Assembly: GCF_900141765.1 (NCBI RefSeq)
Contig: NZ_FSRK01000003.1
Coordinates: 186,001 to 250,000 of the forward strand
Direction: 5' to 3'
Length of the DNA stretch: 64,000 nucleotides
From: Epilithonimonas zeae
GTDB taxonomy: Bacteria > Bacteroidota > Bacteroidia > Flavobacteriales > Weeksellaceae
Made by a program: the position numbers and the translations under genes. Numbering within the stretch: position 1 is the stretch's first letter; each line of letters begins with the position of its first letter. Below, in pieces: positions 45,388 through 59,628 of this stretch. A model generated the notes under the pieces. The model saw nothing but the letters and a program-made list of their open reading frames with translations, was not told the DNA's origin and ran no database searches.

Positions 45388-47805
45388 TTATTCGTATTTC
45401 AGATATTTGACAAGATTGATTTTTGTAGCGCGGTAAGCTTTGAAACTCACAACCACGAATGTTAAAATCAATAATAAAAACAAGCTCAGAACGTAAGGCC
45501 AAACTGGCATATCGATTCTATAAGCAAAATCTTTGAGCCATTCATTCATTGCATAATATCCGAAAGGCATACTGATTAAAACCGCAATTACACAAATCAG
45601 TAAAAATCTTTTGGTCAAATCCCAGACAATCGTTTTTTCGTCTGCGCCTAAGGTTTTTTTGATGGCAACGTCTTTGAGTTTTTGTTCTATTAATAATGAT
45701 GACAAAGCGAATAATCCCAATAATGCAATGACCAAAACCACGATATTTAAAGTTGTAAATAAAGTCTGCTGTTTCTGAAACTTCTCAAATGTTTTGGCGA
45801 ATTGTTTATCCACGAATTCATAATCGTAAGGATAGCCTGGCTCTGCTTTGGTGGTCCAGAATTCCTTAATGTTTTCCAAAGTGCCTTTGATATCATTTCC
45901 TGAAATTTTGATTTGCAGGTTGCTCATATTATTTTTCACCCAATTTCTGTCGTAGTTGAAGTAAACAATCGGTTCCACAGGCTGATTCACTCCACTATAG
46001 TTGACATCTTTTACCACTCCCAGAATTTGATACTTTTTCTTACCATCCCATCCAGTGAAAAATTCTTTTCCCAAAGCTGTTTTCGGATTGTAGCCCAGTT
46101 TCCCTGCAAAAGTTTCATTCACCACCGCACCGTTGATGGTGTCAGAAGCTTTTTTCCAGTTCAGGTCACGTCCGGAGAGAAATTTGATTTTGTAGAATTT
46201 TAAAAAATTCTCGTCGATTCCACCTAACATCGTTTGTACCGTTTTGGTGGTGTCAGTGGCTAATTTGACGACTGAGCCATTGGCCGTACCGCTTCCCAAG
46301 GAATTGACAGAGCCCGTAACATCCGTCACACCCGGGATTCTTGCCATCTCAGCTTTTAGTCTTTGGTATTTTTTGAAATTAAATCCATTTTCCCAATTCG
46401 TCTTTTTGAAATAAATCTGAATCGCCTGATCACCCTGGAAACCCAAATCCTTGTTCATCATATAGCTGACCTGCGTATGGATAATCAATGAACATATGAT
46501 GAAGAATGAAGAGATAATCAATTGTAAAGTCAAGATAGAATTTCGTAACCAAACGCCTTGCCTGCTTCTTGCGAAATTGCCTTTCAAAGTATTGATGGGT
46601 TTGAAATTCGACAGATAAAGTGCCGGTATCAACCCCGAAATCAATGAAAATAAAATCAATAATAATCCTGTATAGAGGAATAATCTTGGGTCGTTTAACT
46701 TAATTTCTTTGTCCAGAAACTGGTTGTAAGACGGTAAAAATAATTCGACCATTGCGAAAGCAACCATATAAGCCACCAGGCAAATCAGAAAAGTCTCCAT
46801 CAAAAACTGCAAAACCAAACTAGATTTGGTACTTCCCACCACTTTTCTCACGCCAACTTCTTTCGCTCGCTGTGATGCCTGAGCCGTTTTCAGATTAATC
46901 AAATTGATGCCCGACAATGCTAAAATCAAAACAGATAATCCCAGCAAAATCATAATCGATTTTTTGTCCCCTTTGTTGATGCCACTGCTTCTGGAATCCA
47001 GTTTCATCTTGCTCAATGGCGTCAGATAGACCATCGCCGGATTTTTCTTATCTAAAGCATAGCCCCATTTTTTGGAAGAAATCTCGTCCTGTTCCTGCAT
47101 CTGTTTAGACAGTTTTTGCTCCAGTGTCTTGATGTCTGTCCCAGGTTTCAGCCTCAAAAATCCATTATAGTTATAGTTCGTCCATTGGTCTTTGGACTCC
47201 TCCATATAAGGATTTCTATGAATGAAATCTGGTTTGAAAACCGTATTGTTTTCCGGAAGTTTATAAATAGCGCTGACCACATATATTTTATCATCAGAAT
47301 CAGTTTTTACTGATTTTCCTATGGCATCCTGGTAATCGTCACCGAATAATGTTTTAGCAGTTTTTTCTGATAAAGCTATTTTTCCGTTATCTGACAAAGC
47401 ATTTTGATAATTCCCTGCGACTTTTTCGAAGGGAAAAAACTTGAAAAATGAATCTATCGAAACGGAACCTGAAACATAGGCGGAATTACCGCCAACAGTC
47501 AGTTTCTGCTTGCCCCATTCATTGTAAACCAAACCATCTTCAATCTCGGAGAATTTTTCTTTCGAAACAAATATTTCCGGATAACTGGAACTCGACATAA
47601 TCCCAAAAGAAGCGTTGCCATTTTCCACGAAGTAAATATTTTCCTTGTTCGGAACCCATTGTTCATAGGACTTTTCGTCCTGCCAATGGATATATATCAA
47701 CAGAAAAACACACAGCCCAACACTCAATCCCAAGATATTGATAACCGTGGAAAGCCAGTTTTTTCTATAGTTGATGAATGCTATTTTGAGCCAGTTCTTT
47801 AACAT
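45388..47805 (-). CDS. Large ABC transporter permease (two FtsX/MacB units), second copy
   Basis: 805 residues, made of two MacB/FtsX-like halves. It begins MLKNWLKIAFINYRKNWLSTVINI with the first helix, then a periplasmic domain, three helices around residues 285-400 with the SQRAKEVGVRKVVGSTKSSLVLQFLMET loop, a second helix at about 430-450, a second periplasmic domain, and three helices near the C-terminus (VAIKKTLGADEKTIVWDLTK..). It ends NLVKYLKYE. It is paralogous along its length to the upstream gene. Substrates are unknown. Confidence 0.87.
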   Translation of the reverse strand: MLKNWLKIAFINYRKNWLSTVINILGLSVGLCVFLLIYIHWQDEKSYEQWVPNKENIYFVENGNASFGIMSSSSYPEIFVSKEKFSEIEDGLVYNEWGKQKLTVGGNSAYVSGSVSIDSFFKFFPFEKVAGNYQNALSDNGKIALSEKTAKTLFGDDYQDAIGKSVKTDSDDKIYVVSAIYKLPENNTVFKPDFIHRNPYMEESKDQWTNYNYNGFLRLKPGTDIKTLEQKLSKQMQEQDEISSKKWGYALDKKNPAMVYLTPLSKMKLDSRSSGINKGDKKSIMILLGLSVLILALSGINLINLKTAQASQRAKEVGVRKVVGSTKSSLVLQFLMETFLICLVAYMVAFAMVELFLPSYNQFLDKEIKLNDPRLFLYTGLLLILFSLISGLIPALYLSNFKPINTLKGNFARSRQGVWLRNSILTLQLIISSFFIICSLIIHTQVSYMMNKDLGFQGDQAIQIYFKKTNWENGFNFKKYQRLKAEMARIPGVTDVTGSVNSLGSGTANGSVVKLATDTTKTVQTMLGGIDENFLKFYKIKFLSGRDLNWKKASDTINGAVVNETFAGKLGYNPKTALGKEFFTGWDGKKKYQILGVVKDVNYSGVNQPVEPIVYFNYDRNWVKNNMSNLQIKISGNDIKGTLENIKEFWTTKAEPGYPYDYEFVDKQFAKTFEKFQKQQTLFTTLNIVVLVIALLGLFALSSLLIEQKLKDVAIKKTLGADEKTIVWDLTKRFLLICVIAVLISMPFGYYAMNEWLKDFAYRIDMPVWPYVLSLFLLLILTFVVVSFKAYRATKINLVKYLKYE

Positions 47806-47932: not shown

Positions 47933-50347
47933 TTATTCGTATTTCAGATATTTCACAAGATTCACTTTCGTAGCCTGGTAAGCTTTGATACTCACCACTG
48001 CAAAGGTCAAAATCAATAATGAAATCAAACTTAGGATGAATGGGAAAACCGGCATATCAATTCGGTAATCGAAATCCTTCAGCCACTCATTCATCAGATA
48101 ATAACTGATAGGCATACTAATGAGAACCGCCGTCAAAGTAATCCAAAGGAATTGTTTCGTCAATCCAAAAACCAATGTTCCGTCAGACGCTCCAAGCGTT
48201 TTTCTGATCGCCACATCTTTCAGCTTCTGCTCAATCATTAATGATGACAAAGCGAATAATCCTAACAAGGCTACCATCAAAACCATTGCATTCAGGATGG
48301 TGAAAAGTGTCTGTTGTTTCTGATATTTTACAAAACTCTCAGCAAATTTTTTATCAATAAAATAAGAATCGAAAGGATAGCCCGGCTCTACATTCTTCTG
48401 CCAGTAAGCTTTTATTCTTTTCACCGTTCCATCGATATCGTCAGGCTTGATTTTCAACTGGATATTATAGACATTGTATCGTTTCCAGTCTGTTTCTCTG
48501 TAATGGAAAAAGATGATGGGATCAACTGCTCTTCTTGGGTTGAGAATATTGAAATCCTTTACAATTCCTACAATGTGATAAGGTTTATTGTCAAAACCGG
48601 GACGAACTTCATTCTTCAAGGCCTGGTCATCTGTCCAACCGAATTTGTTTACAAATGCCTCATTAACCATAACATTGGCGATGGTATCAGAAGCAAGATT
48701 GGGGTTCAGCCAGCGTCCTTTTTTCAGTTTCACATCCATAAACTGGAGGTAATTATAATCCATAGAGCCGTGCTGAGCGAAGATGCTTTTGTCCATATAA
48801 TCCATATTGGAATTGCTGAATCTCCCGCTTCCAGGAACCGCTTCTCCATAAGAAACATCCGCTACACCTTCGATTTTTCTCATTTCGTTTTTGATGCGCT
48901 CATATTTTAGCCAAGGTTTTGCATCATTCTCACTAAAGTTGATTAAGAAAACCTGCTTTCCACTGAAGCCGAGGTCTTTGTTCATCATATATTTTACTTG
49001 ATTGTTCACAATCAATCCTCCGATGATGAAGAAAGAAGAAATAATGAGTTGCAAAGTCAAAATTCCGTTTCTCAGCCAAATCCCGTGTTTACTTCTCGCA
49101 AAGTTTCCTTTCAAAGTTTCAATGGCTTTGAAGTTGGCCAGATAAGTTGCGGGAATCAAACCTGAAATGAATGTCACCGCCATAACCATCGCAAATGAAT
49201 AAAAGTAAATATGCCAGTCATTCATCACAATTTGTTTGTCATAAAACTTATTGAAACTTGGTAAGAGAAGCTCAGTCAAGGCAAGAGACAATAGATAAGA
49301 TGCTAAACAAATCAAAAAAGTTTCTAATAAAAACTGAAGAACCAGGTTGGATTTTGTACTTCCAATCGCTTTTCTGACCCCAATTTCCTTAGCTCTTTGC
49401 GAAGCTTGAGCAGTTTTCAGGTTAATGAAATTAATGGCTGATAGAATCACAATCAAAACAGAAAGCGTGAACAGAATCATCATCGTTTTAAAATCTCCAA
49501 CACCGAACCAAGAGGCTTTGGCGTGCAGTTTTATCGCATCAATTGGTGTAAACAAACTTCCTGTCGGTCCGTACAATTCCAAATATTTTTCAGGAGTTAC
49601 ACCTGCGCCTTGCGCACTGATTTTTGCTCTGTATAGGAAAATTTTGTCGTAGAATTTCTGTTGTAAAGCTTCGACATCTGTTCCGGGTTTTAGCAAAAAG
49701 AAACATCCGTAATTGAAGTTTCCCCATTGGTCTTTATCACCTTTCATCTGTTCGAAAGGTGTAATGATAAAATCCGGTTTTATCTGGCTATTCGCTTCCG
49801 GCAGCTCATAAACTGCGGTTACAACAAAACTTTTATTATTGATTTTTACAGTCTCTCCTGCCACATTGGTTTTCCCGAAGAGATTTTTGGCCGCTTTTGT
49901 AGAGAGTGCCATTACTTTATCGCCTTTCAAAGCATCTTTATAACTTCCAGAAACCAATTTGAACGGGAAGAAATTGAAAAAACTTTCAGAAGCCGACATT
50001 CCTTCGCCCTGATAAACGGTTTTTGTTTTCGTAGTCATTTTATAACCCATTCCTGAACCGTTAAACAAAACATAATCCTTAACCTCGGGAATCACCTTCA
50101 CAGCAAGTTCTGCCATCGGATAAGAAATATTGTTCCCGTAAGTATTTTCAGCTTTATTGTGCGTTTGGAATGCGTAGATGTTTTCTTTCTTTGGATTCCA
50201 TCTTTCGAAGGATTCTTCATCGTTCCAATGCATCAGAATGAGCATAAACCCTGTCAATCCAATCGTTAATCCAAATAAATTAATGATGGTAGACAACCAG
50301 TTTTTTTTATAATTGATGAAGGCAATTTTGAGCCAGTTTTGTAACAT
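47933..50347 (-). CDS. Large ABC transporter permease (two FtsX/MacB units), first copy
   Basis: 804 residues with the same double FtsX/MacB plan as the downstream gene. It has an N-terminal MLQNWLKIAFINYKKNWLSTIINLFGL, the loop SQRAKEIGVRKAIGSTKSNLVLQFLLET in the first half and VAIRKTLGASDGTLVFGLTKQF in the second, and ends NLVKYLKYE. It likely forms a heterodimer with its 805-residue paralogue, driven by the separate ATPase. An 83-bp gap with a hairpin precedes it. Such double-length permeases are typical of Bacteroidota; the function is inferred as efflux or lipoprotein/peptide transport. Confidence 0.87.
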   Translation of the reverse strand: MLQNWLKIAFINYKKNWLSTIINLFGLTIGLTGFMLILMHWNDEESFERWNPKKENIYAFQTHNKAENTYGNNISYPMAELAVKVIPEVKDYVLFNGSGMGYKMTTKTKTVYQGEGMSASESFFNFFPFKLVSGSYKDALKGDKVMALSTKAAKNLFGKTNVAGETVKINNKSFVVTAVYELPEANSQIKPDFIITPFEQMKGDKDQWGNFNYGCFFLLKPGTDVEALQQKFYDKIFLYRAKISAQGAGVTPEKYLELYGPTGSLFTPIDAIKLHAKASWFGVGDFKTMMILFTLSVLIVILSAINFINLKTAQASQRAKEIGVRKAIGSTKSNLVLQFLLETFLICLASYLLSLALTELLLPSFNKFYDKQIVMNDWHIYFYSFAMVMAVTFISGLIPATYLANFKAIETLKGNFARSKHGIWLRNGILTLQLIISSFFIIGGLIVNNQVKYMMNKDLGFSGKQVFLINFSENDAKPWLKYERIKNEMRKIEGVADVSYGEAVPGSGRFSNSNMDYMDKSIFAQHGSMDYNYLQFMDVKLKKGRWLNPNLASDTIANVMVNEAFVNKFGWTDDQALKNEVRPGFDNKPYHIVGIVKDFNILNPRRAVDPIIFFHYRETDWKRYNVYNIQLKIKPDDIDGTVKRIKAYWQKNVEPGYPFDSYFIDKKFAESFVKYQKQQTLFTILNAMVLMVALLGLFALSSLMIEQKLKDVAIRKTLGASDGTLVFGLTKQFLWITLTAVLISMPISYYLMNEWLKDFDYRIDMPVFPFILSLISLLILTFAVVSIKAYQATKVNLVKYLKYE

Positions 50348-50430: not shown

Positions 50431-51153
50431 TTATTCGAAGTTTTTAGAATCCGCTTTTTCGAAAACATCCTTTCTCTGGGAAGAGTGTTCTTCACTGAAA
50501 ATCTCACCGTCTTTCATATTCACAATTCTGGAAGCGTAACCGGCGTCATAGGAAGAGTGCGTTACCATTGCAATCGTAGAACCTTCTCTGTGAAGTTCTG
50601 CAAGGAGATTCATCACTTCATTCCCGTTGGAACTGTCTAGATTTCCGGTTGGCTCATCGGCGAGGATTAGTTTTGGTCTTGTCACCAACGCTCTTGCAAC
50701 CGCTGCTCTTTGCTGCTGACCACCGGAAAGCTGCTGTGGATAATGTTTCGCTCTGTGTGCGATGTTGATTTTTTCCATAATCTCTTCCACTCTTCTTTTT
50801 CTTTCTGAGGAAGAAACACCGTTATAGATCAAAGGCAATTCGATGTTTTCGTAAACCGTTAGTTCATCAATCAAATTAAAATTCTGAAAAATGAAACCGA
50901 TATTTTTCTTTCTGATGTCCGATTTTTTCTTCTCGGAAGTCCCAATGGTTTCTACGGATTCAAATTGATAAGAACCGGAAGAAGCACTATCCAAAAGTCC
51001 CAAAATATTAAGAAAAGTGGATTTTCCACAACCAGAAGGTCCCATTATCGCAACGAATTCGCCTTCTTTGATTTGCAGGCTTACATTATTAAGCGCATTG
51101 GTTTGAACATCTTCTGTTTTATAGACTTTTGAAAGGTTTTGAATGTTTATCAT
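50431..51153 (-). CDS. ABC transporter ATP-binding protein of the sigma-54 operon
   Basis: 240 residues. Walker A is GPSGCGKST at 38-46, the signature LSGGQQQRAAVARAL, Walker B LILADEP, followed by TGNLDSSNG and the H-loop AMVTHSS. It is a MacB/LolD-class ATPase, which powers FtsX-type permeases. It is followed by the two 800-residue permeases and preceded, 14 bp upstream, by the aspartic-protease gene. A C-terminal charged extension (EHSSQRKDVFEKADSKNFE) goes beyond the usual core. Confidence 0.92.
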   Translation of the reverse strand: MINIQNLSKVYKTEDVQTNALNNVSLQIKEGEFVAIMGPSGCGKSTFLNILGLLDSASSGSYQFESVETIGTSEKKKSDIRKKNIGFIFQNFNLIDELTVYENIELPLIYNGVSSSERKRRVEEIMEKINIAHRAKHYPQQLSGGQQQRAAVARALVTRPKLILADEPTGNLDSSNGNEVMNLLAELHREGSTIAMVTHSSYDAGYASRIVNMKDGEIFSEEHSSQRKDVFEKADSKNFE

Positions 51154-51167
51154 TGTAGTATATTTTT

Positions 51168-52034
51168 TTAAATTATAATTCCGAATTTTTTATTTTTAAA
51201 GTCAATGACTATTGTTTTATCGAGGAAAAAAACATTTCCCATTACTCCGTCGAGCCCCTGTTGTTCAAAGGAAAAGTAATCTTCGTCTGTAAACCAAAAC
51301 TCTTTGGTACTGAATGCCGATTTTCCGATGATCACATTTTTATTGGTTTCTATTGCTTTTACAACCAGAGGATTGTTAAAATTTCTGATATTAAAGTTTT
51401 CAATAATTTTGGATGAATCAATTAAGTTTTGAAAATTCTTTTTATAAGAAACCATCGGAAAAATACTTGCGCCCGTATCATACTGAAAATGATAGACTTT
51501 ACCATCAATCTCTAAAGGAAGAATCGGTTTTTTATTGATAATTTTGATGTCAACAAAATCAATTTTTTTAGTGGTTTTTAATTGTTCACTTACAGTTATT
51601 TTTTGGTTAGGAAAATCAATAATCAGATATTTATTTTGAAACAAATCTGCTCCTACAACACCGCAAGCTTCCTCCTGTTCGAAGTTCAAAAGCCCGTTAA
51701 GTTTATAATTCTCAATTTTTAATTTTCCAACACTGAAATTCTGATGATCAACAGTGAAAACTTTGTGTCCAGCTGCTTCCATTGCTTCATCTACTTTCTT
51801 ATTCTTAATAAGCTCTGTTTTTTCAAAACATTTTTCATAGATTAAAGTCATATTAGCACCTAAATCAAATTGAAACCGATACGTTTTGTTTTCGATAGTG
51901 AAAGGCACGCTCATTGCGATTTTATCAACTAATTTCCCATTAATAGAATCTTTTTCCCATTTAAAATCAATACTTTGCCCTTTAACAAAAAGACCTATAA
52001 TGACTGTGATTAAAAACAATAATCGATTTTGCAT
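51168..52034 (-). CDS. Exported two-lobed retropepsin-like aspartic protease
   Basis: 288 residues. A signal peptide spans about 1-19 (ending FVKGQ). Two aspartic-protease-like motifs are visible: FDLGANMTLIY (Asp57) and YDTGASIFPMVS (Asp186). Each is followed by a hydrophobic-Gly segment (GVVGADLF; GVMGNVFF), so the protein looks like two fused retropepsin-like lobes. The first motif reads DLGA instead of the usual D(T/S)G, which may alter or abolish activity. It lies between the metalloprotease and the ATPase in the efflux operon, with gaps of 21 and 14 bp. Its target is unknown. Confidence 0.72.
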   Translation of the reverse strand: MQNRLLFLITVIIGLFVKGQSIDFKWEKDSINGKLVDKIAMSVPFTIENKTYRFQFDLGANMTLIYEKCFEKTELIKNKKVDEAMEAAGHKVFTVDHQNFSVGKLKIENYKLNGLLNFEQEEACGVVGADLFQNKYLIIDFPNQKITVSEQLKTTKKIDFVDIKIINKKPILPLEIDGKVYHFQYDTGASIFPMVSYKKNFQNLIDSSKIIENFNIRNFNNPLVVKAIETNKNVIIGKSAFSTKEFWFTDEDYFSFEQQGLDGVMGNVFFLDKTIVIDFKNKKFGIII

Positions 52035-52055: not shown

Positions 52056-53513
52056 TTATTGTTTCCAGTTTTTCACCGTGTGATTCACACTTGTATTTTT
52101 ATCCAGTGACAAAGAAACGTCTTTCCCTTCTTCGATTCCGTCGATTTTTCCTTCTGTTTCCCAGCTTCCTTTGGTTAATTTGAATTTCAAATCAGGATAA
52201 GTTTTGAATGTAATTTGTCTGGTTGTTTCACCTGTTTTATTAAGTTTAATGACGTTAGGATTCCAATTCCCGATGCTTGACTGATTACCTGTAATATAAA
52301 CATCACCACTGTTTTCGGGAACATTTACCGTTAAATTCACTTCGTATTTTACATTAGATAAACCCAATTTTGTTCTCACTTTTTCGACACTGGTTTTGTC
52401 TAAAACAGTTAACAACTCAGGCACAAAATCCTTGAAAGTTTTATATTTTGCTCTGTTGTTTTCATATTCTTTCATTTTCTTTTCAAAGTCCGGAATCAAA
52501 ACAAAATAATTTTCCTTGATATGTTGCTGCCTTAATTTCTCTGCCAATTCAGGATTTCCATTCGCCAAAGCAATTCTGATTTCGCCTGATCTAACGATAT
52601 GTTCGCCGACACAAGACGGCCAATAAGAATAACCTTGTCCATCCATTTTATCGATAAAAGCCTCGGACATCAGATTATTGCTCTTGTTAATACTGTCTTC
52701 ATATTGCCCCAAATATTGATTGACAAACGAATGACCAAACTCGTGTGTTATTAAAAAGTTGGTCGTTTCCGGATGATTGAATCCAAATTCTGTGTAATCT
52801 TTGATATTATTTTTCTTTTTTAATGGAACATAAGCACTGCTGATCATATTCGCAATTTGTCCTTTATCCGACTTAAACATTGGTCCGTTGCCGTGCCAGA
52901 AAACCTCGCTGTAAGGCAAAACATCAAATGGATTCACGTAAAATCTGTAAGCCAGAAATTTCTGTCCATAATATTTTTCCATCTCCGCCATATAGCCAGT
53001 AGGAATGTTTTTTTTGACTTCGTTTTTCGCACCTTCTATAAAATAACTTTGGGATTTGAAGAATGCACCTAGCTTTCTCTCGACGTAAAATTCTCTCAAT
53101 TGTTCTGCGAATTTTTTCACAGCTTCTTTCTTTGCATTATCATTTTCCTCAATCTGGTAAGCATAACCTTTTGCCGGAAAAATATTGTGCTTCAGTAAAA
53201 CCTGATAAGTCAAATCTTGCTGCTGGCCGGCAACCTGCAGATAATCCTGCATCGCTTTGATGATTTTCGAATTATCATATTTTTCCATTTCCCTGTTCGC
53301 CAAATCTGCTAACGGAAGATAACTGATATCCGTTTTTCCGTCGATATAGAAAAGCCTTCCCTGATGTTTCGCTACCAGATATTCGACGATCGAATAAGTC
53401 GCGATATTGGGACTGAATTCCACATCCACTTTTGATTGAGATTTCAGATTTGCCGCCAATAAAAACATCATCAAAGTCAAAATGCTTTTATTAATCATCT
53501 TTAAGGTCTTCAT
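52056..53513 (-). CDS. Exported zinc metalloprotease (DUF4932 type) with C-terminal CBM20-like domain
   Basis: 485 residues with a signal peptide (about 1-26, ending LKSQ). The central region carries a gluzincin-type HEFGHS (His257, Glu258, His261) in TTNFLITHEFGHSFVNQYLG, with a downstream acidic stretch (MSEAFIDKM) that could supply the third zinc ligand. This resembles DUF4932 proteins. The last ~95 residues (VNLTVNVPENSGDVYITGNQ, IGNWNP) look like a starch-binding CBM20-type beta-domain. It is encoded between the head-GIN protein and the aspartic protease inside the transport operon, so it may process or regulate a transported or envelope protein (inference). Confidence 0.72.
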   Translation of the reverse strand: MKTLKMINKSILTLMMFLLAANLKSQSKVDVEFSPNIATYSIVEYLVAKHQGRLFYIDGKTDISYLPLADLANREMEKYDNSKIIKAMQDYLQVAGQQQDLTYQVLLKHNIFPAKGYAYQIEENDNAKKEAVKKFAEQLREFYVERKLGAFFKSQSYFIEGAKNEVKKNIPTGYMAEMEKYYGQKFLAYRFYVNPFDVLPYSEVFWHGNGPMFKSDKGQIANMISSAYVPLKKKNNIKDYTEFGFNHPETTNFLITHEFGHSFVNQYLGQYEDSINKSNNLMSEAFIDKMDGQGYSYWPSCVGEHIVRSGEIRIALANGNPELAEKLRQQHIKENYFVLIPDFEKKMKEYENNRAKYKTFKDFVPELLTVLDKTSVEKVRTKLGLSNVKYEVNLTVNVPENSGDVYITGNQSSIGNWNPNVIKLNKTGETTRQITFKTYPDLKFKLTKGSWETEGKIDGIEEGKDVSLSLDKNTSVNHTVKNWKQ

Positions 53514-53548: not shown

Positions 53549-54325
53549 TTAAATTGAATCGATTGTTCCTCCGGAACTTCTGCTCGCAGAAAATTTAATT
53601 CCTGACAATGTTTTATATCTGATTTTAGCTAAAGAACTTGCAGAAGCGGTTAATTCTTTTGAAACACTCAAAGTTATCGACGATGTTGCACTTGCAGTTG
53701 CTTTTGCAGTTTGAATATTCATATTTTTGGCATCCACAGAACTTGCACTATCCACATTGATTTTTGCATTATCAGCGGAACCGCTGATTTTTACCGAACT
53801 TGCAGAATTAGCATCAACGTTCAGATTTTTTGTATTGATTTTTCCCGAAAATCCACCTGCACTACCAGTATTGATATTAACAACCGAAGCTTTTGAATCG
53901 GCGTAGATTTTACCACTTCCATTGCTTTCAAAAGTTTGTTCAGCAGTTTCAAAAACACTTTTTACTTTTATAGAAGAGGCATTTCCGGCTTCTGCTTTTA
54001 CAAGGTCTTTTGCGTAAACAACCACTTTTGTATCGGCATTCTGAAGCGAAACATTAGGTTTGTATTGGATATAAAGCGTTTTATTTTTCACTTCGATTTT
54101 AAGCTCTGACAAATGCGTGCTTGTCGCAACCGCTTTTTCTTCGTCTGACTTTACAATTTCCACTTCAATCGCCTGGGAAGTTTTCACAGCATTGAATGAA
54201 CCCAAATTAAAAGTCTTTGTTTCTGATTTCTGAATCCCATTCGAAAAATCATTTCCTTTCAATGTTGCCGAGGACACAAAAAGTCCGACAATCATTGTTA
54301 TTAAGAGTAATAATAGTTTTTGCAT
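53549..54325 (-). CDS. Head-GIN domain protein (DUF2807)
   Basis: 258 residues with a signal peptide (about 1-20, FVSSA). The rest is a repetitive beta-rich sequence high in Ser, Ala and Asn (SSVKISGSADNAKINVDSASSVDAKNMNIQTA), as expected for the beta-helix of the head-GIN/DUF2807 adhesin-like domain. Such proteins are exported; their ligands are unknown. It is the second gene of the operon, 19 bp after the adaptor, so it is probably co-expressed with the transport complex rather than a free adhesin. Confidence 0.75.
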   Translation of the reverse strand: MQKLLLLLITMIVGLFVSSATLKGNDFSNGIQKSETKTFNLGSFNAVKTSQAIEVEIVKSDEEKAVATSTHLSELKIEVKNKTLYIQYKPNVSLQNADTKVVVYAKDLVKAEAGNASSIKVKSVFETAEQTFESNGSGKIYADSKASVVNINTGSAGGFSGKINTKNLNVDANSASSVKISGSADNAKINVDSASSVDAKNMNIQTAKATASATSSITLSVSKELTASASSLAKIRYKTLSGIKFSASRSSGGTIDSI

Positions 54326-54344: not shown

Positions 54345-55586
54345 TTATTTTTGAATGTCTAAGATTTCATATTTTTTCAATTCAGAATAATCTGAAGTAA
54401 TCACAGATTCACCTTGCTTCAATCCGGAAACCACTTCATAATAAAGAGGATTTTCTCTTCCCAGACTGATGTTTCGCTTTTCAGCTTTGTTATTTTTCAC
54501 TACGAAAATCCATTTTCCGTTCGTGTCTTTGTAGAAATTCCCTTTCGGAATCATCATACTTTGCGTATCGGCAGACAATTTCAGTTTCACGCCGAAAGTC
54601 ATTCCGATTTTCAGGGTTGAAATTTTTGCATCAATGAAATTCAATTCCACAGAAAACTGTCCGTCTTTCACTTCCGGAAGAATTTTGCTGATGATGACTT
54701 CGTATTCTTTTCCATTATTGTCAAGACTTCCTTTGATTCCGACAGTCAATTTATTGATATAATATTCGTCAACTTTCGCAATAAGTTTGTAACCACCCAT
54801 CAAATCGACTTTCCCAATGCTTTCGCCCGTTGTCAGATTTTGTCCTAATGAAATATTGAATGATGACAATCTTCCAGAGACAGGCGACATTATCAGGAAA
54901 TTATTTTTGTTGGAACGAAGGATATTCAAGCTTTTCTCCATTTGATTAATGGAATTATTGATGGCTGAAAACTGAGAATTTCTGGAAACCTTTTCATTTT
55001 TAGCGCCATTTTCAACAATTTGCTTTCTCTGTTTTTGATAATTCAAATTCTGAAGACTGATGTCATAATCGGTTTTCTTTCCGATTTCCGCATCGTACAA
55101 TCTTTTCTGAAGATTGAAAGATTGTAACGCCGTATTATAATCATTCTGAGACTGCAACAATTCCTTATCCTGACTGAATTCCTGATTTTTTAATTCTAAA
55201 AGTGAACTTCTCATCTGGCTGATCTGCTGCATAATTCCCGTTTCCTGATTCAGATAATTAAATTCTGTATTGGGATTGTAAACTCTTGCAATAGGTTGTC
55301 CTTTTGTCAGCATTTGTCCGTCCTCCGCAAAAATTTCTTTTACCGCGCCACCTTCCAAAACATTCACAAGAGAAGAATTAAGAGATTGCGTCTGTGCAGT
55401 TACCATCAACATATCTTCGAATTTTCCATTCGTCACTTCATCAATCGTGATATCTTCCGATTTTACATTATATGTTTTTTTCTGATTGAGAAAATACCAT
55501 CCAAAAACCGAAACTGCCACTGCAGACGCGATGATGATCAAAACAAATTTTAGTTTAGATTTCTTTTTTACTATTTTCGTATCCAT
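54345..55586 (-). CDS. Periplasmic adaptor (HlyD/RND type), first gene of the sigma-54 operon
   Basis: 413 residues. One N-terminal helix (about 13-32) is followed by lipoyl halves (NVLEGGAVKEIFAEDGQMLTKGQPIARVYNP and the partner SPVSGRLSSFNISLGQNLTTG) and coiled-coil stretches from about 110 to 220 (LELKNQEFSQDKELLQSQNDYNTALQ...). It has the adaptor architecture that joins an inner-membrane transporter to TolC. It begins about 30 bp downstream of a sigma-54-like promoter and is divergent from the response-regulator gene. Confidence 0.88.
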   Translation of the reverse strand: MDTKIVKKKSKLKFVLIIIASAVAVSVFGWYFLNQKKTYNVKSEDITIDEVTNGKFEDMLMVTAQTQSLNSSLVNVLEGGAVKEIFAEDGQMLTKGQPIARVYNPNTEFNYLNQETGIMQQISQMRSSLLELKNQEFSQDKELLQSQNDYNTALQSFNLQKRLYDAEIGKKTDYDISLQNLNYQKQRKQIVENGAKNEKVSRNSQFSAINNSINQMEKSLNILRSNKNNFLIMSPVSGRLSSFNISLGQNLTTGESIGKVDLMGGYKLIAKVDEYYINKLTVGIKGSLDNNGKEYEVIISKILPEVKDGQFSVELNFIDAKISTLKIGMTFGVKLKLSADTQSMMIPKGNFYKDTNGKWIFVVKNNKAEKRNISLGRENPLYYEVVSGLKQGESVITSDYSELKKYEILDIQK

Positions 55587-55617
55587 ATTTAGATAACTGT
55601 TTTACTTACAGATAATT

Positions 55618-55634
55618 ACACAAGGCAAGTGCCA
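55618..55634 (-). promoter_or_regulatory. Putative sigma-54 (-24/-12) promoter of the efflux operon
   Basis: On the minus strand TGGCAC (55634-55629), five bases, then TTGTGT. Compared with the consensus TGGCAC-N5-TTGCA, the -24 element is perfect and the -12 element differs in one core base (GT for GC). The start codon at 55586 lies about 30 bp downstream, compatible with a 20-nt leader. Confidence 0.55.
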
Positions 55635-55697
55635 CAATTTTATAATCTTGTAACTCTTTGTAAATGTGATTAAATATAATTTTATTAATTTTAAAAC

Positions 55698-55734
55698 TGT
55701 TCATTATCGGACACTTTTTGTACGAAAACGGACA
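55698..55734. promoter_or_regulatory. Two 16-bp dyads, likely enhancer sites of the sigma-54 regulator
   Basis: Site 1 is TGTTCA-TTAT-CGGACA (55698-55713) and site 2 is TGTACG-AAAA-CGGACA (55719-55734). The CGGACA half-sites match exactly, and the dyads repeat every 21 bp, two helical turns. They lie 64-100 bp upstream of the -24 element, where enhancer-binding proteins bind. Confidence 0.6.
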
Positions 55735-55838: not shown

Positions 55839-55889
55839 AAATGGGCTAAAGCCCATTTAAAAAGTGGACAAAACAAAAAGGCTTTAGCC
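55839..55889. repeat. GGCTAAAGCC palindromes before the regulator gene
   Basis: AAATGGGCT-AA-AGCCCATTT (55839-55858) and the related GGCTTTAGCC in opposite orientation (55880-55889) lie directly before the response-regulator ATG. The core resembles a repeat I recall from flavobacterial intergenic DNA. It could also form a hairpin in the leader of the regulator mRNA. Confidence 0.4.
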
Positions 55890-55904
55890 AAAATTTAAAT
55901 TTTA

Positions 55905-57248
55905 ATGCGAAAAAAAGAAGCTCATATTTTAATTGTGGATGATGACGAGGATATCCTGTTCTCGGCAAGAGTCTGGCTCAAGAAGTTTTTTACGGAAGTC
56001 AGCTGTCTTAGTCAGCCTAAAAATATTCTTAAATTTTTATCGGAACAACAAGTTGACACGGTTCTTCTCGATATGAATTTTCGAAAAGGCTTTGAAAATG
56101 GACAAGACGGTTTGTATTGGATGAATGAAATCAAAACACTGGAACCTCAACTTCCGATTATTCTGATGACCGCTTACGGCGAAGTTGAATTAGCTGTTGA
56201 AGCGTTGAAAAATGGCGCTTCCGATTTTATCCTTAAACCTTGGAATAATGAAAAGTTATATGCTTCCGTGAATCTCGCGGTCGATATTTCCCGAAAAAAT
56301 AAAAAGCTGAATCAATGGGAAAATGTCAGCATCAAAACCAATCAATATCAGTTGGAAACCAAATCTCCAGCGATGCAGGAAGTGATGGACCAAATTGAAA
56401 GAGTTGCTCCGACTGACGCCAATGTTTTGCTTTTGGGTGAAAATGGAACCGGAAAATATGTTTTGGCGGAACATATTCACGAGTTATCAGAACGGAAAAA
56501 CCAGCCTTTTGTTCATATTGATTTGGGAAGCCTTTCGGAAAATCTTTTTGAATCTGAATTATTCGGCTATAAAAAAGGAGCGTTTACCGATGCACATCAG
56601 GACTATGCCGGAAAAATTGAGAATGCCGAAAATGGAACGGTTTTCCTCGACGAAATCGGGAACCTTCCACTTCTTCTTCAAACTAAATTATTGAGTTTAA
56701 TTCAAAATAGAAAACTATCCAGAATTGGAGAAAGTAAAGAAAGATTGTTGGACGTAAGGTTTATTTTTGCAACCAACGAGAATCTTAAAAAAGCTGTTGC
56801 TGAAAATCGTTTCCGAAAAGATCTATATTATAGAATCAACACGGTTGAATTAAATATTCCAAGTTTGAGAGAACGGATTGAAGATATTTCAAATTTAGCT
56901 GATTATTTTTTAGAAAAATATAAACAGAAATATCACAAACCTGATTTGTTTTTAAATGAAGTTTTAATTTCAGAATTAACACATTATTCCTGGCCAGGAA
57001 ACATTCGCGAACTCGACCATTGTATTGAAAGAAGCATCATTCTTTCCAACGAAAAAAATCTTAAATTGCTGATGCCTCAAGATGAAGAATCCGAAAACAT
57101 CATCGTAAACCTCAACATCGAAGAAATGGAAGAAATTCTGATTAAAAAAGCCTTGAAAAAACACCGCGGAAATATTTCTTTGGCTGCGGAAGATTTGGGA
57201 TTGTCTAGAGCGGCATTATATCGAAGAATGGAGAAATTCGAACTGTAG
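55905..57248 (+). CDS. Sigma-54-dependent response regulator (NtrC type)
   Basis: 447 residues. The receiver domain (1-120) has acidic pocket Asp12-14, phospho-acceptor Asp56, Thr89 and Lys111. The AAA+ domain has Walker A GENGTGK (178-184, followed by Tyr where Glu is usual), the sigma-54 contact loop GAFTDA (225-230) for GAFTGA, Walker B VFLDEIG (246-252) and arginine finger region FRKDLYYR. The Fis-type helix-turn-helix is at 418-441. It should activate the divergent efflux operon through the dyads at 55698-55734. The partner kinase gene follows 38 bp later. Confidence 0.92.
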   Translation: MRKKEAHILIVDDDEDILFSARVWLKKFFTEVSCLSQPKNILKFLSEQQVDTVLLDMNFRKGFENGQDGLYWMNEIKTLEPQLPIILMTAYGEVELAVEALKNGASDFILKPWNNEKLYASVNLAVDISRKNKKLNQWENVSIKTNQYQLETKSPAMQEVMDQIERVAPTDANVLLLGENGTGKYVLAEHIHELSERKNQPFVHIDLGSLSENLFESELFGYKKGAFTDAHQDYAGKIENAENGTVFLDEIGNLPLLLQTKLLSLIQNRKLSRIGESKERLLDVRFIFATNENLKKAVAENRFRKDLYYRINTVELNIPSLRERIEDISNLADYFLEKYKQKYHKPDLFLNEVLISELTHYSWPGNIRELDHCIERSIILSNEKNLKLLMPQDEESENIIVNLNIEEMEEILIKKALKKHRGNISLAAEDLGLSRAALYRRMEKFEL

Positions 57249-57286: not shown

Positions 57287-58603
57287 ATGAATTCGAGTCG
57301 TTATGTTTGGTTGATTTTTATTCTGCTGGCGATTGTCAACGGAATTTTTGCATTTGATTTTTATTCTCAAAACAAATGGATCAACTGTATCTTATTTTCA
57401 TTGGTGAGTTTGGTCTGTATCGTTCTTGCACAGACCTCAGCTTTGTCGTACATTCAGCAAACAGAAAAATTGCTTTTGGCGATTCAGAAAAAAGATTTCT
57501 CATTGTTTCCAAAAACGGAAGAAAATAGTTTGTTAGACAATGCTGTAAAACTATATTATCAAAGCAAAGAGGAACATCTTTCGCTTTCTTCTTACAAACT
57601 ATTGTATGAAGAAATCCTCAATCAATTAGAAATCGGATTGATGATTTTGTCAAAGAAAAATGAAGATTGGGAAGTGTTTTATGTGAATCCTGTTTTTCTT
57701 GAAATTTTAGAAATTCCGAAGTATAATTCCTGGAATCTTTATGAAAATAAAACGACAGAATTTTATAAAATCATTGAACAAACGAATTATGAAAATTCTC
57801 AGGAATTCTTTGATATTTCGATTAATGAAAATACAAAACAATCGTTTTCATTAAGGACAAAAAAAGTTCAGAATGTAAAAAATCAGTTTTGCATCATCAG
57901 CTTAGAATCGGTCCAGAAAATTATCGAACAAAAAGAAAAACTGGCTTGGAACAATCTGATGAAAGTGATTTCACACGAACTTTTGAATACATTAACACCT
58001 GTCAATAGCTTAATTCAGAACCTGGAATATATCGCAAATCAAGATGTTATCGAAAAAGAAGATCAACAGGATATGAAGGAAAGTCTGATGATCATCAATT
58101 CAAAATCAAAACAATTACTGAATTTTGTAGATGATTATAGACAAGTCGCAGAACTTCCGAAGCCTGTTTTCAAAACAATTTCTTTAACCAATATTGTAGA
58201 ATCCGCACTTAATTTCCTGAAACCTGAATTTGAGAAAAAACATATTACAATTATCAATTCATTGGAAAACCATATGATTTCAGCTGATGAAAAAATGATT
58301 GAAAGATGTTTGATCAATCTTTATCTCAACGCAATTTACGCCGTTTCTGATAATGTTGGAAGAACAATAAAAACCGAGATCAAAACTCAAAACAAACGAA
58401 TTATTTTAAGTGTAGAAGACAATGGAATTGGAATCTCAAAGGAAATTCAGGACAAGATTTTTCTTCCATTTTTTACAACGAGAAGCAACGGTTCCGGAAT
58501 TGGATTGACACTCAGCAAAAGTATTATCGAAGCCCATAAAGGTTATCTGAATTATAAACCTTTGGAGCAGGGAAGTAGGTTTGAGATTTGGTTTGTGGAA
58601 TAA
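57287..58603 (+). CDS. Sensor histidine kinase
   Basis: 438 residues. Two N-terminal membrane helices (about 7-26 and 32-52) flank only a few residues, so it has no large periplasmic sensor. A PAS-like segment (about 105-210, EILNQLEIGLMILSKK...FYVNPVFLEILE) follows. The H-box is VISHELLNTLTPVNS (His230), with N-box NLYLNAIYAV, G1 DNGIGI and G2 GSGIGLTLSK. The short inter-helix loop suggests membrane or cytoplasmic sensing, as in BceS-like intramembrane kinases. It phosphorylates the regulator encoded just upstream. Confidence 0.9.
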   Translation: MNSSRYVWLIFILLAIVNGIFAFDFYSQNKWINCILFSLVSLVCIVLAQTSALSYIQQTEKLLLAIQKKDFSLFPKTEENSLLDNAVKLYYQSKEEHLSLSSYKLLYEEILNQLEIGLMILSKKNEDWEVFYVNPVFLEILEIPKYNSWNLYENKTTEFYKIIEQTNYENSQEFFDISINENTKQSFSLRTKKVQNVKNQFCIISLESVQKIIEQKEKLAWNNLMKVISHELLNTLTPVNSLIQNLEYIANQDVIEKEDQQDMKESLMIINSKSKQLLNFVDDYRQVAELPKPVFKTISLTNIVESALNFLKPEFEKKHITIINSLENHMISADEKMIERCLINLYLNAIYAVSDNVGRTIKTEIKTQNKRIILSVEDNGIGISKEIQDKIFLPFFTTRSNGSGIGLTLSKSIIEAHKGYLNYKPLEQGSRFEIWFVE

Positions 58604-58788: not shown

Positions 58789-59628
58789 ATGAAAATCAAG
58801 AATAACGCTGGGGAAACGGTAGAGTTTGAAATCTCGAAATTGGAAAGCTCACTCCGGAATTCGGGAGCAGGCGAACAATCTGTGAAAAGAGTTCTGGAAA
58901 CAGTCTTACCAAAATGTTTTGAAGGCATCACAACCGGCGAACTGTACAGAATGGCATTTGAAGAATTAAAGAAAATCTCGAATTCTGTCGCGGCAAGATA
59001 CAGTTTGAAAAAAGCTTTGTTGGAATTGGGTCCTGCGGGATTTTATTTTGAGCAATGGATTTCTCGAGTATTTCAAAATATTGGCTACAAGACCGAAACA
59101 GGGCAATTGATAAAAGGACATTCTGTGACGCACGAAGCGGACGTTATTGCCAAGAAAGATAACAAAACTTATTGGGTAGAATGTAAATTCCGAAATGCGG
59201 AAGACACGAAAATCTCTGTCACGACGCCGATGTACGTTTTGTCAAGAATCAAGGACATTTCTAATATCCAGTACAATCTTTTCGGAACCAAAACTGAATT
59301 TACAGACGGTTGGCTGATCACGAATACTTATTTCACTAAGGATTCTGTGGCTTTCTCAGAATATTATGGTTTGAGATTGCTGTCTTGGGATTATCCAAAA
59401 GATAAAAACATCAAAAGTTTGGTTGACCAAAATGCATTGTACCCTATTACTTGTCTTACGACTTTGGACGGAAAACAAAAACAGAAATTGCTGGAGAACA
59501 AATGTGTTTTGGTAAAGGAATTATTCAACAATCAGAATTTGTTGAATGTTTTAGAACTCAATCAAGAAAAAAAATCAGAAGTTCTGAAAGAAACTAAAGA
59601 ATTGATGAACACAAAAATATCAGAATAA
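58789..59628 (+). CDS. ATP-cone domain fused to PD-(D/E)XK restriction-endonuclease-like domain
   Basis: 279 residues. Residues 1-85 match the ATP-cone fold seen in NrdR and ribonucleotide reductases (KIKNNAGETVEFEISKLESSLRNSG, ITTGELYRMAFEELKK, AARYSLKKALLELGP). Residues 86-180 contain an Mrr-like nuclease core (FEQWISRVFQNIGYKT, HEADVI with Asp118, and YWVECKF with Glu131-x-Lys133). The C-terminal ~100 residues are unassigned. The combination suggests a nuclease controlled by ATP or dATP binding. It is alone, without a methyltransferase or helicase, so it is not a classical restriction system. Confidence 0.75.
   Translation: MKIKNNAGETVEFEISKLESSLRNSGAGEQSVKRVLETVLPKCFEGITTGELYRMAFEELKKISNSVAARYSLKKALLELGPAGFYFEQWISRVFQNIGYKTETGQLIKGHSVTHEADVIAKKDNKTYWVECKFRNAEDTKISVTTPMYVLSRIKDISNIQYNLFGTKTEFTDGWLITNTYFTKDSVAFSEYYGLRLLSWDYPKDKNIKSLVDQNALYPITCLTTLDGKQKQKLLENKCVLVKELFNNQNLLNVLELNQEKKSEVLKETKELMNTKISE

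Follow-up and report, generated by a model that had tools for sequence, protein, structure and literature searches.

The window, a stretch of 64,000 nucleotides of Epilithonimonas zeae DNA, carries an adaptor/protease/ABC-exporter operon and, back to back with it, the genes of a two-component system, and the question raised by this arrangement is what switches the operon on. The features on which an answer can be built are as follows.

54345..55586, minus strand: HlyD/MacA-type periplasmic adaptor, operon gene 1 (profile matches)
53549..54325, minus strand: DUF2807 (head GIN) protein (profile match)
52056..53513, minus strand: DUF4932 protein with an HEFGH (HExxH) motif, predicted secreted metalloprotease (profile match and motif)
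51168..52034, minus strand: aspartyl-protease-like protein (profile match)
50431..51153, minus strand: ABC ATPase, MacB/LolD/DarD-like (profile matches)
47933..50347, minus strand: duplicated MacB/FtsX (ADOP-like) permease 1 (profile matches)
45388..47805, minus strand: duplicated MacB/FtsX (ADOP-like) permease 2 (profile matches)
55905..57248, plus strand: response regulator with REC, sigma-54 AAA+ and Fis HTH domains, predicted dyad binder (Pfam)
57287..58603, plus strand: sensor histidine kinase with two membrane helices (residues ~7-25 and 35-53) and no extracytoplasmic domain (profiles, hydropathy)
55619..55634, minus strand: sigma-54 -24/-12 element TGGCACTTGCCTTGTG (sequence match; conserved in orthologous loci)
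55635..55697, no strand: AT-rich spacer of 63 nt between promoter and proximal dyad (63 in the genus, 61-65 or 52-55 elsewhere)
55698-55713, no strand: promoter-proximal enhancer dyad TGTTCATTATCGGACA (sequence match, motif scans, alignment, profile)
55719-55734, no strand: promoter-distal enhancer dyad TGTACGAAAACGGACA (sequence match, motif scans, alignment, profile)

The region between the two gene sets is very probably the control region of the operon, and would act as a sigma-54 switch driven by the divergent two-component system. On the minus strand, TGGCAC (55634-55629) is followed after five nucleotides by TTGTG (55623-55619), 32 nt from the adaptor ATG (55586), so that the element which the first-pass annotation had placed about 30 bp before this codon proved exact to the base. 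TGGCACTTGCCTTGT has GG at -25/-24 and G(C/T) at -13/-12 with the 10-bp spacing of a sigma-54 (RpoN) promoter, from which transcription of the operon is predicted to start at about 55608 with a 5' leader of about 22 nt. RpoN is encoded in the genome (PF04552, E 1.2e-51), and sigma-54 promoters with short leaders have been documented by experiment in Flavobacterium (PMC9723704). The -24/-12 pattern is, however, common, being found at 111 places genome-wide against 66 for the reversed control; alone it proves little and was dropped as proof, and the evidence is carried by the dyads and their distance from it.

The dyads are 16 bp each and lie 21 bp apart, 63 nt separate the nearer dyad from the -24 box, and their coordinates agree with the earlier description of two dyads two helical turns apart upstream of the promoter. 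They are imperfect palindromes (4/6 and 5/6 matching arms). Allowing one mismatch at most, the dyad motif has 5 matches in the window against 0.81 expected, a number reached in 0 of 100 shuffles, and the genome scan that had been suggested as a check found exact TGTNCRN4CGGACA in the 4.08-Mb genome only at the two window sites, with none for the reversed control. The left half of the motif originally proposed, TGTnCr-N4-CGGACA, held, but its right half was too narrow: CGAACA, TGAACA and CGTACA also occur in relatives, and an invariant CGGACA was ruled out because the right half varies among orthologues. The corrected conserved motif is TGTNCR-N4-YGNACA, in pairs spaced 21 or 22 bp; both window dyads also fit the frame TGT-N10-ACA. 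Between the dyads and the regulator gene there is, in addition, a palindromic repeat, GGGCTAAAGCCC ... GGCTTTAGCC, at 55842-55895, which some congeners share (L005, L008, L010).

The gene directly divergent from the operon encodes, as had been claimed, an NtrC-type regulator: Pfam gives the order REC-AAA+(sigma-54)-Fis, with PF00158 and PF02954, the sigma-54 AAA+ domain and the Fis HTH, above cut-off. Its HTH region, LG[LMI][ST]R..LYR[RK].EK, is conserved across phyla and absent from the paralogs in its own genome, from which the regulators also cluster apart in a tree. One other sigma-54 activator in the genome (L033, C1:476824) has REC and AAA+ domains, and its frame seems to stop before any Fis HTH. 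By simple hydropathy, 27 of 28 kinase homologues begin with two membrane helices joined by a loop of 2 to about 13 residues and lack an extracytoplasmic domain; the kinase of L217, for which no helices were found by this method, probably has a wrong start. Just past the kinase gene, at 58789-59628, lies a gene with an Mrr-type restriction endonuclease domain.

The regulator is present in 30 of 98 relatives, and a dyad pair was detected at E<1e-5 in all 30 of them and in none of the 68 others. The profile used, R1, was trained on sites beside the regulator in relatives, so this association is partly circular, while the phylum scan, largely free of circularity as is the scan of the wider collection described below, is more independent. 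In the phylum, where 105 of 395 Bacteroidota genomes have the regulator, all 40 genomes with a pair at E<=1e-4 carry it (Fisher 1e-26); no pair was detected at E<=0.01 in 30 of the 105 with the strict filters of that scan. When the control regions are aligned, the invariant columns fall almost entirely within the dyads (TGT.C/G.AC) and the GG.A of the -24 box, and orthologous loci keep the dyad pair and the -24/-12 element while the spacer and the remaining intergenic DNA drift. Eight loci, congeneric or related (L006, L012, L015, L016, L017, L018, L020, L025), have about 0.9-1.4 kb of other genes between the regulator gene and the dyads, and the dyads remain with hlyD wherever that end is visible. 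This gap is an insertion hot spot; it is occupied by a gene for a YhcG PDDEXK nuclease in L006 (look-alikes in L017, L024, L025 and L109) and by a DUF4143 ATPase gene in L016 (look-alikes in L012, L015 and L020).

The distance between the elements is conserved as well: members of the genus have 63 nt between dyad and -24 box, and the adaptor loci of other Flavobacteriales 63-65 nt. The choice of the best -24/-12 match took in 230 nt to each side and made no use of distance; of 69 non-redundant pairs, 58 had this match 52-55 or 61-65 nt away from the dyad, compared with 2.7 expected. A naive binomial on spacing gives very small values, but because the sites are related the effect size alone is usable. 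The other 11 pairs have no good -24/-12 at the expected place, and the -12 boxes of Flavobacterium are weak (TTTAC, ATCAC). The two spacing peaks differ by about one helical turn, and two turns separate the dyads, so that all elements would lie on the same face of the DNA; dyads paired at 21-22 bp and set at these two distances from the -24 box have the defined helical face of an NtrC-type enhancer, and the two fixed spacings lend themselves as a natural test case for helical phasing in sigma-54 activation. Perfect IHF-consensus sites are found in the spacers of some Flavobacteriales and a few others only (9 against 0.55 expected, several from close relatives and some at a different position or strand). 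The IHF-like site that some Flavobacteriales have ~29 (or 19) nt above the -24 box is degenerate in the window. Universal IHF-assisted bending was ruled out on the grounds that the sites are confined to few groups and the window copy is degenerate, and IHF-assisted bending is suggested for some loci; two HU/IHF-family genes are present in the genome.

The same arrangement is also found in other phyla. When 84,980 genomes were scanned for the exact pattern, with DNA letters only and no gene information, at least 80 loci were obtained, and most of the matches listed have this regulator, kinase, adaptor, ATPase or permease as well. Among these listed matches, the pair stands beside such genes in Acidobacteria (L171, L177), Aminicenantes (L163), Zixibacteria (L164), Ignavibacteria (L228), Alphaproteobacteria (L160, L180, L215, L217) and Gammaproteobacteria (L175, L178, L233), where single taxon labels could be wrong since several records are metagenome bins. 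A -24/-12 element lies at 51-55 or 61-65 nt in 59 of 85 pairs among the matches listed, and a few of the loci, e.g. L172 and L219, look like chance matches.

The genes behind the pairs give an idea of what the switch controls. Dyad pairs precede adaptor genes, ATPases and individual permeases, with several pairs per permease array, and are also found upstream of TolC, of S46 and S8 peptidases and of PadR-permease units. In the congener G020, the DUF4932 gene is absent from the exporter operon and is found at another place, where it has a dyad pair of its own and a -24/-12 element at 63 nt. In loci L090-L105 (e.g. L090 1361-19725, L099, L100), duplicated FtsX/MacB permease genes follow one another in large numbers, accompanied by one or two ATPases, and several pairs lie inside these arrays. 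In Spirosoma and Larkinella (L159, L183, L231), a predicted secreted protein of 124 amino acids (DUF3244-like in L183) lies behind a pair and is possibly an uncharacterised member of the regulon. At the level of sequence comparison, the elements, their conservation and fixed spacing, and their association with the regulator family and with exporter and peptidase promoters are demonstrated, and the mechanism put forward in the first-pass annotation, an NtrC-type regulator acting from the dyads on a sigma-54 promoter, is supported, all of its predictions about the sequence having held apart from the too narrow right half of the motif.

Three other explanations of the dyads deserve consideration. 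They might chiefly serve the regulator gene as an autoregulatory operator, with the exporter promoter as a side effect, as could be imagined from Flavobacterium-type loci, where the pair ends 3-15 bp before the regulator ATG and binding there would block regulator expression. Moreover, in L176, L230, L092 and L082 a -24/-12-like box with the same 52-64 nt spacing faces the regulator too, and the presence of boxes on both sides of one pair means that the pair may serve both directions, also driving the regulator. The window pair, however, is 170 bp from the regulator ATG and no sigma-54-like box faces that gene; the dyads have stayed with hlyD, where visible, in the eight loci with intervening genes, and pairs stand before permeases, TolC, peptidases and the relocated DUF4932 gene with no adjoining regulator gene. 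Autoregulation as the main function is therefore unlikely.

It is more improbable still that the dyads are bound by another regulator encoded by coincidence in the same genomes. Such a candidate is conceivable because TGT-N10-ACA is also the frame of NifA sites and thus not unique to the divergent regulator, but the pair adjoins precisely this regulator in Bacteroidota, Acidobacteria, Alpha- and Gammaproteobacteria and is tied to a sigma-54 promoter, the recognition helix of the divergent regulator is conserved where those of its paralogs differ, and relatives without the regulator are also without the pair. As for chance palindromes in AT-rich intergenic DNA beside a chance -24/-12 match, the imperfection of the dyads and the abundance of single -24/-12 matches might seem to invite this explanation, which nevertheless has almost no probability left: the motif is unique in the genome, invariant across genera despite spacer drift and fixed in its spacing, and the pair was recovered by an unbiased scan of the collection, so that conservation already refutes chance.

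Under the preferred reading, activation of the exporter operon by the divergent two-component system, the kinase (57287) would phosphorylate the regulator (55905), two dimers of which would occupy the tandem dyads on the same helix face, 21-22 bp apart. The bound dimers would then assemble the AAA+ ring and touch the sigma-54 polymerase waiting at -24/-12, with the spacer of 52-65 bp bending for that contact, and transcription would begin near 55608. Judging by its targets, namely MacB-type exporters, TolC and secreted peptidases, the switch most likely responds to envelope damage or toxic peptides, probably as an envelope or peptide stress; the targets also suggest a role in removing harmful peptides or repairing envelope damage. 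Sensing may go through the transporter.

Sigma-54 enhancers are well known, and an in silico survey of sigma-54 regulons has predicted that sigma-54 promoters are enriched before COG0577 permeases (ABC-type antimicrobial peptide transport) in Bacteroidia; in the passages of that survey that were consulted, no activator, enhancer motif, spacing rule or kinase is named for these promoters (PMC12316311). On a regulator of these exporters, the open-access literature yielded this survey only, and no description of the regulator, the paired motif or the spacing rule was found there; a paper published elsewhere could have been missed. ADOP-type MacB/FtsX permeases "of unknown function" have been counted at 28 and 33 copies in two Dyadobacter genomes (PMC11573002). 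For these abundant and unexplained proteins, the occurrence of the same switch before them, together with the regulator, in several phyla provides a testable on-switch, and a paired TGTNCR-N4-YGNACA with a -24/-12 box 53 or 63 nt off names the likely regulator of the exporters. With such a single DNA code the regulon can be read off the sequence in many phyla, and secreted peptidases are predicted to be regulated together with the exporters.

The system resembles the NtrC-type enhancer/sigma-54 architecture in its REC-AAA+-Fis regulator, its dyads at ~-90 to -130 and its -24/-12 box. Classical sigma-54 enhancers tolerate more variation in distance, whereas here the dyads form pairs spaced 21-22 bp and the promoter distance keeps almost strictly to one of two values that differ by one turn. 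The upstream activator sequence of NifA is TGT-N10-ACA. This motif string occurs in PMC2820453. The present sites differ in that C5 and G12 are also invariant and that they are paired, and the regulator, unlike NifA (GAF-AAA+-HTH), carries a receiver domain and has exporters instead of nif genes as targets. Identity with NifA was rejected on these last two grounds and on a score of 296.2 against a cut-off of 528.85. The best NCBIfam match of the regulator, over its full length, is the PrsR / PEP-CTERM response regulator (TIGR02915), a family rejected as well, with 373.6 bits against a cut-off of 502.6 and no PEP-CTERM or exopolysaccharide genes in the operon; the scores for the AtoC, NtrC and ZraR families are likewise below the curated cut-offs.

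The exporter itself is similar to MacAB-TolC and to the darobactin exporter DarBCD in its adaptor, MacB/LolD-type ATPase and MacB/FtsX permeases, the best matches being the DarC and DarD models. It is not DarBCD, all scores lying below the equivalog cut-offs (171.6/450, 283/375 and 119.1/700), and in contrast to both systems its permeases are duplicated, of the ADOP type, and often stand in arrays together with a single ATPase. The BceRS-BceAB systems are peptide-detoxification modules of Firmicutes, in which the kinase is encoded beside an FtsX-type ABC transporter that is its target, and intramembrane-sensing kinases of this kind have two membrane helices, a short loop and no extracytoplasmic domain. 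The present kinase likewise has two helices with almost no external loop and adjoins an FtsX-type ABC transporter, but its partner is a sigma-54 activator, not an OmpR-type regulator, and the exporter spans the envelope with an adaptor. It is tempting, though doubtful, to regard the system as a multi-phylum Gram-negative counterpart of Bce, in which a sigma-54 two-component kinase lacking an external sensor domain might sense the state of, or the flux through, its own MacB/ADOP exporter and turn on exporters, TolC and secreted peptidases via a phase-locked enhancer pair copied before each unit, including individual permeases in large arrays.
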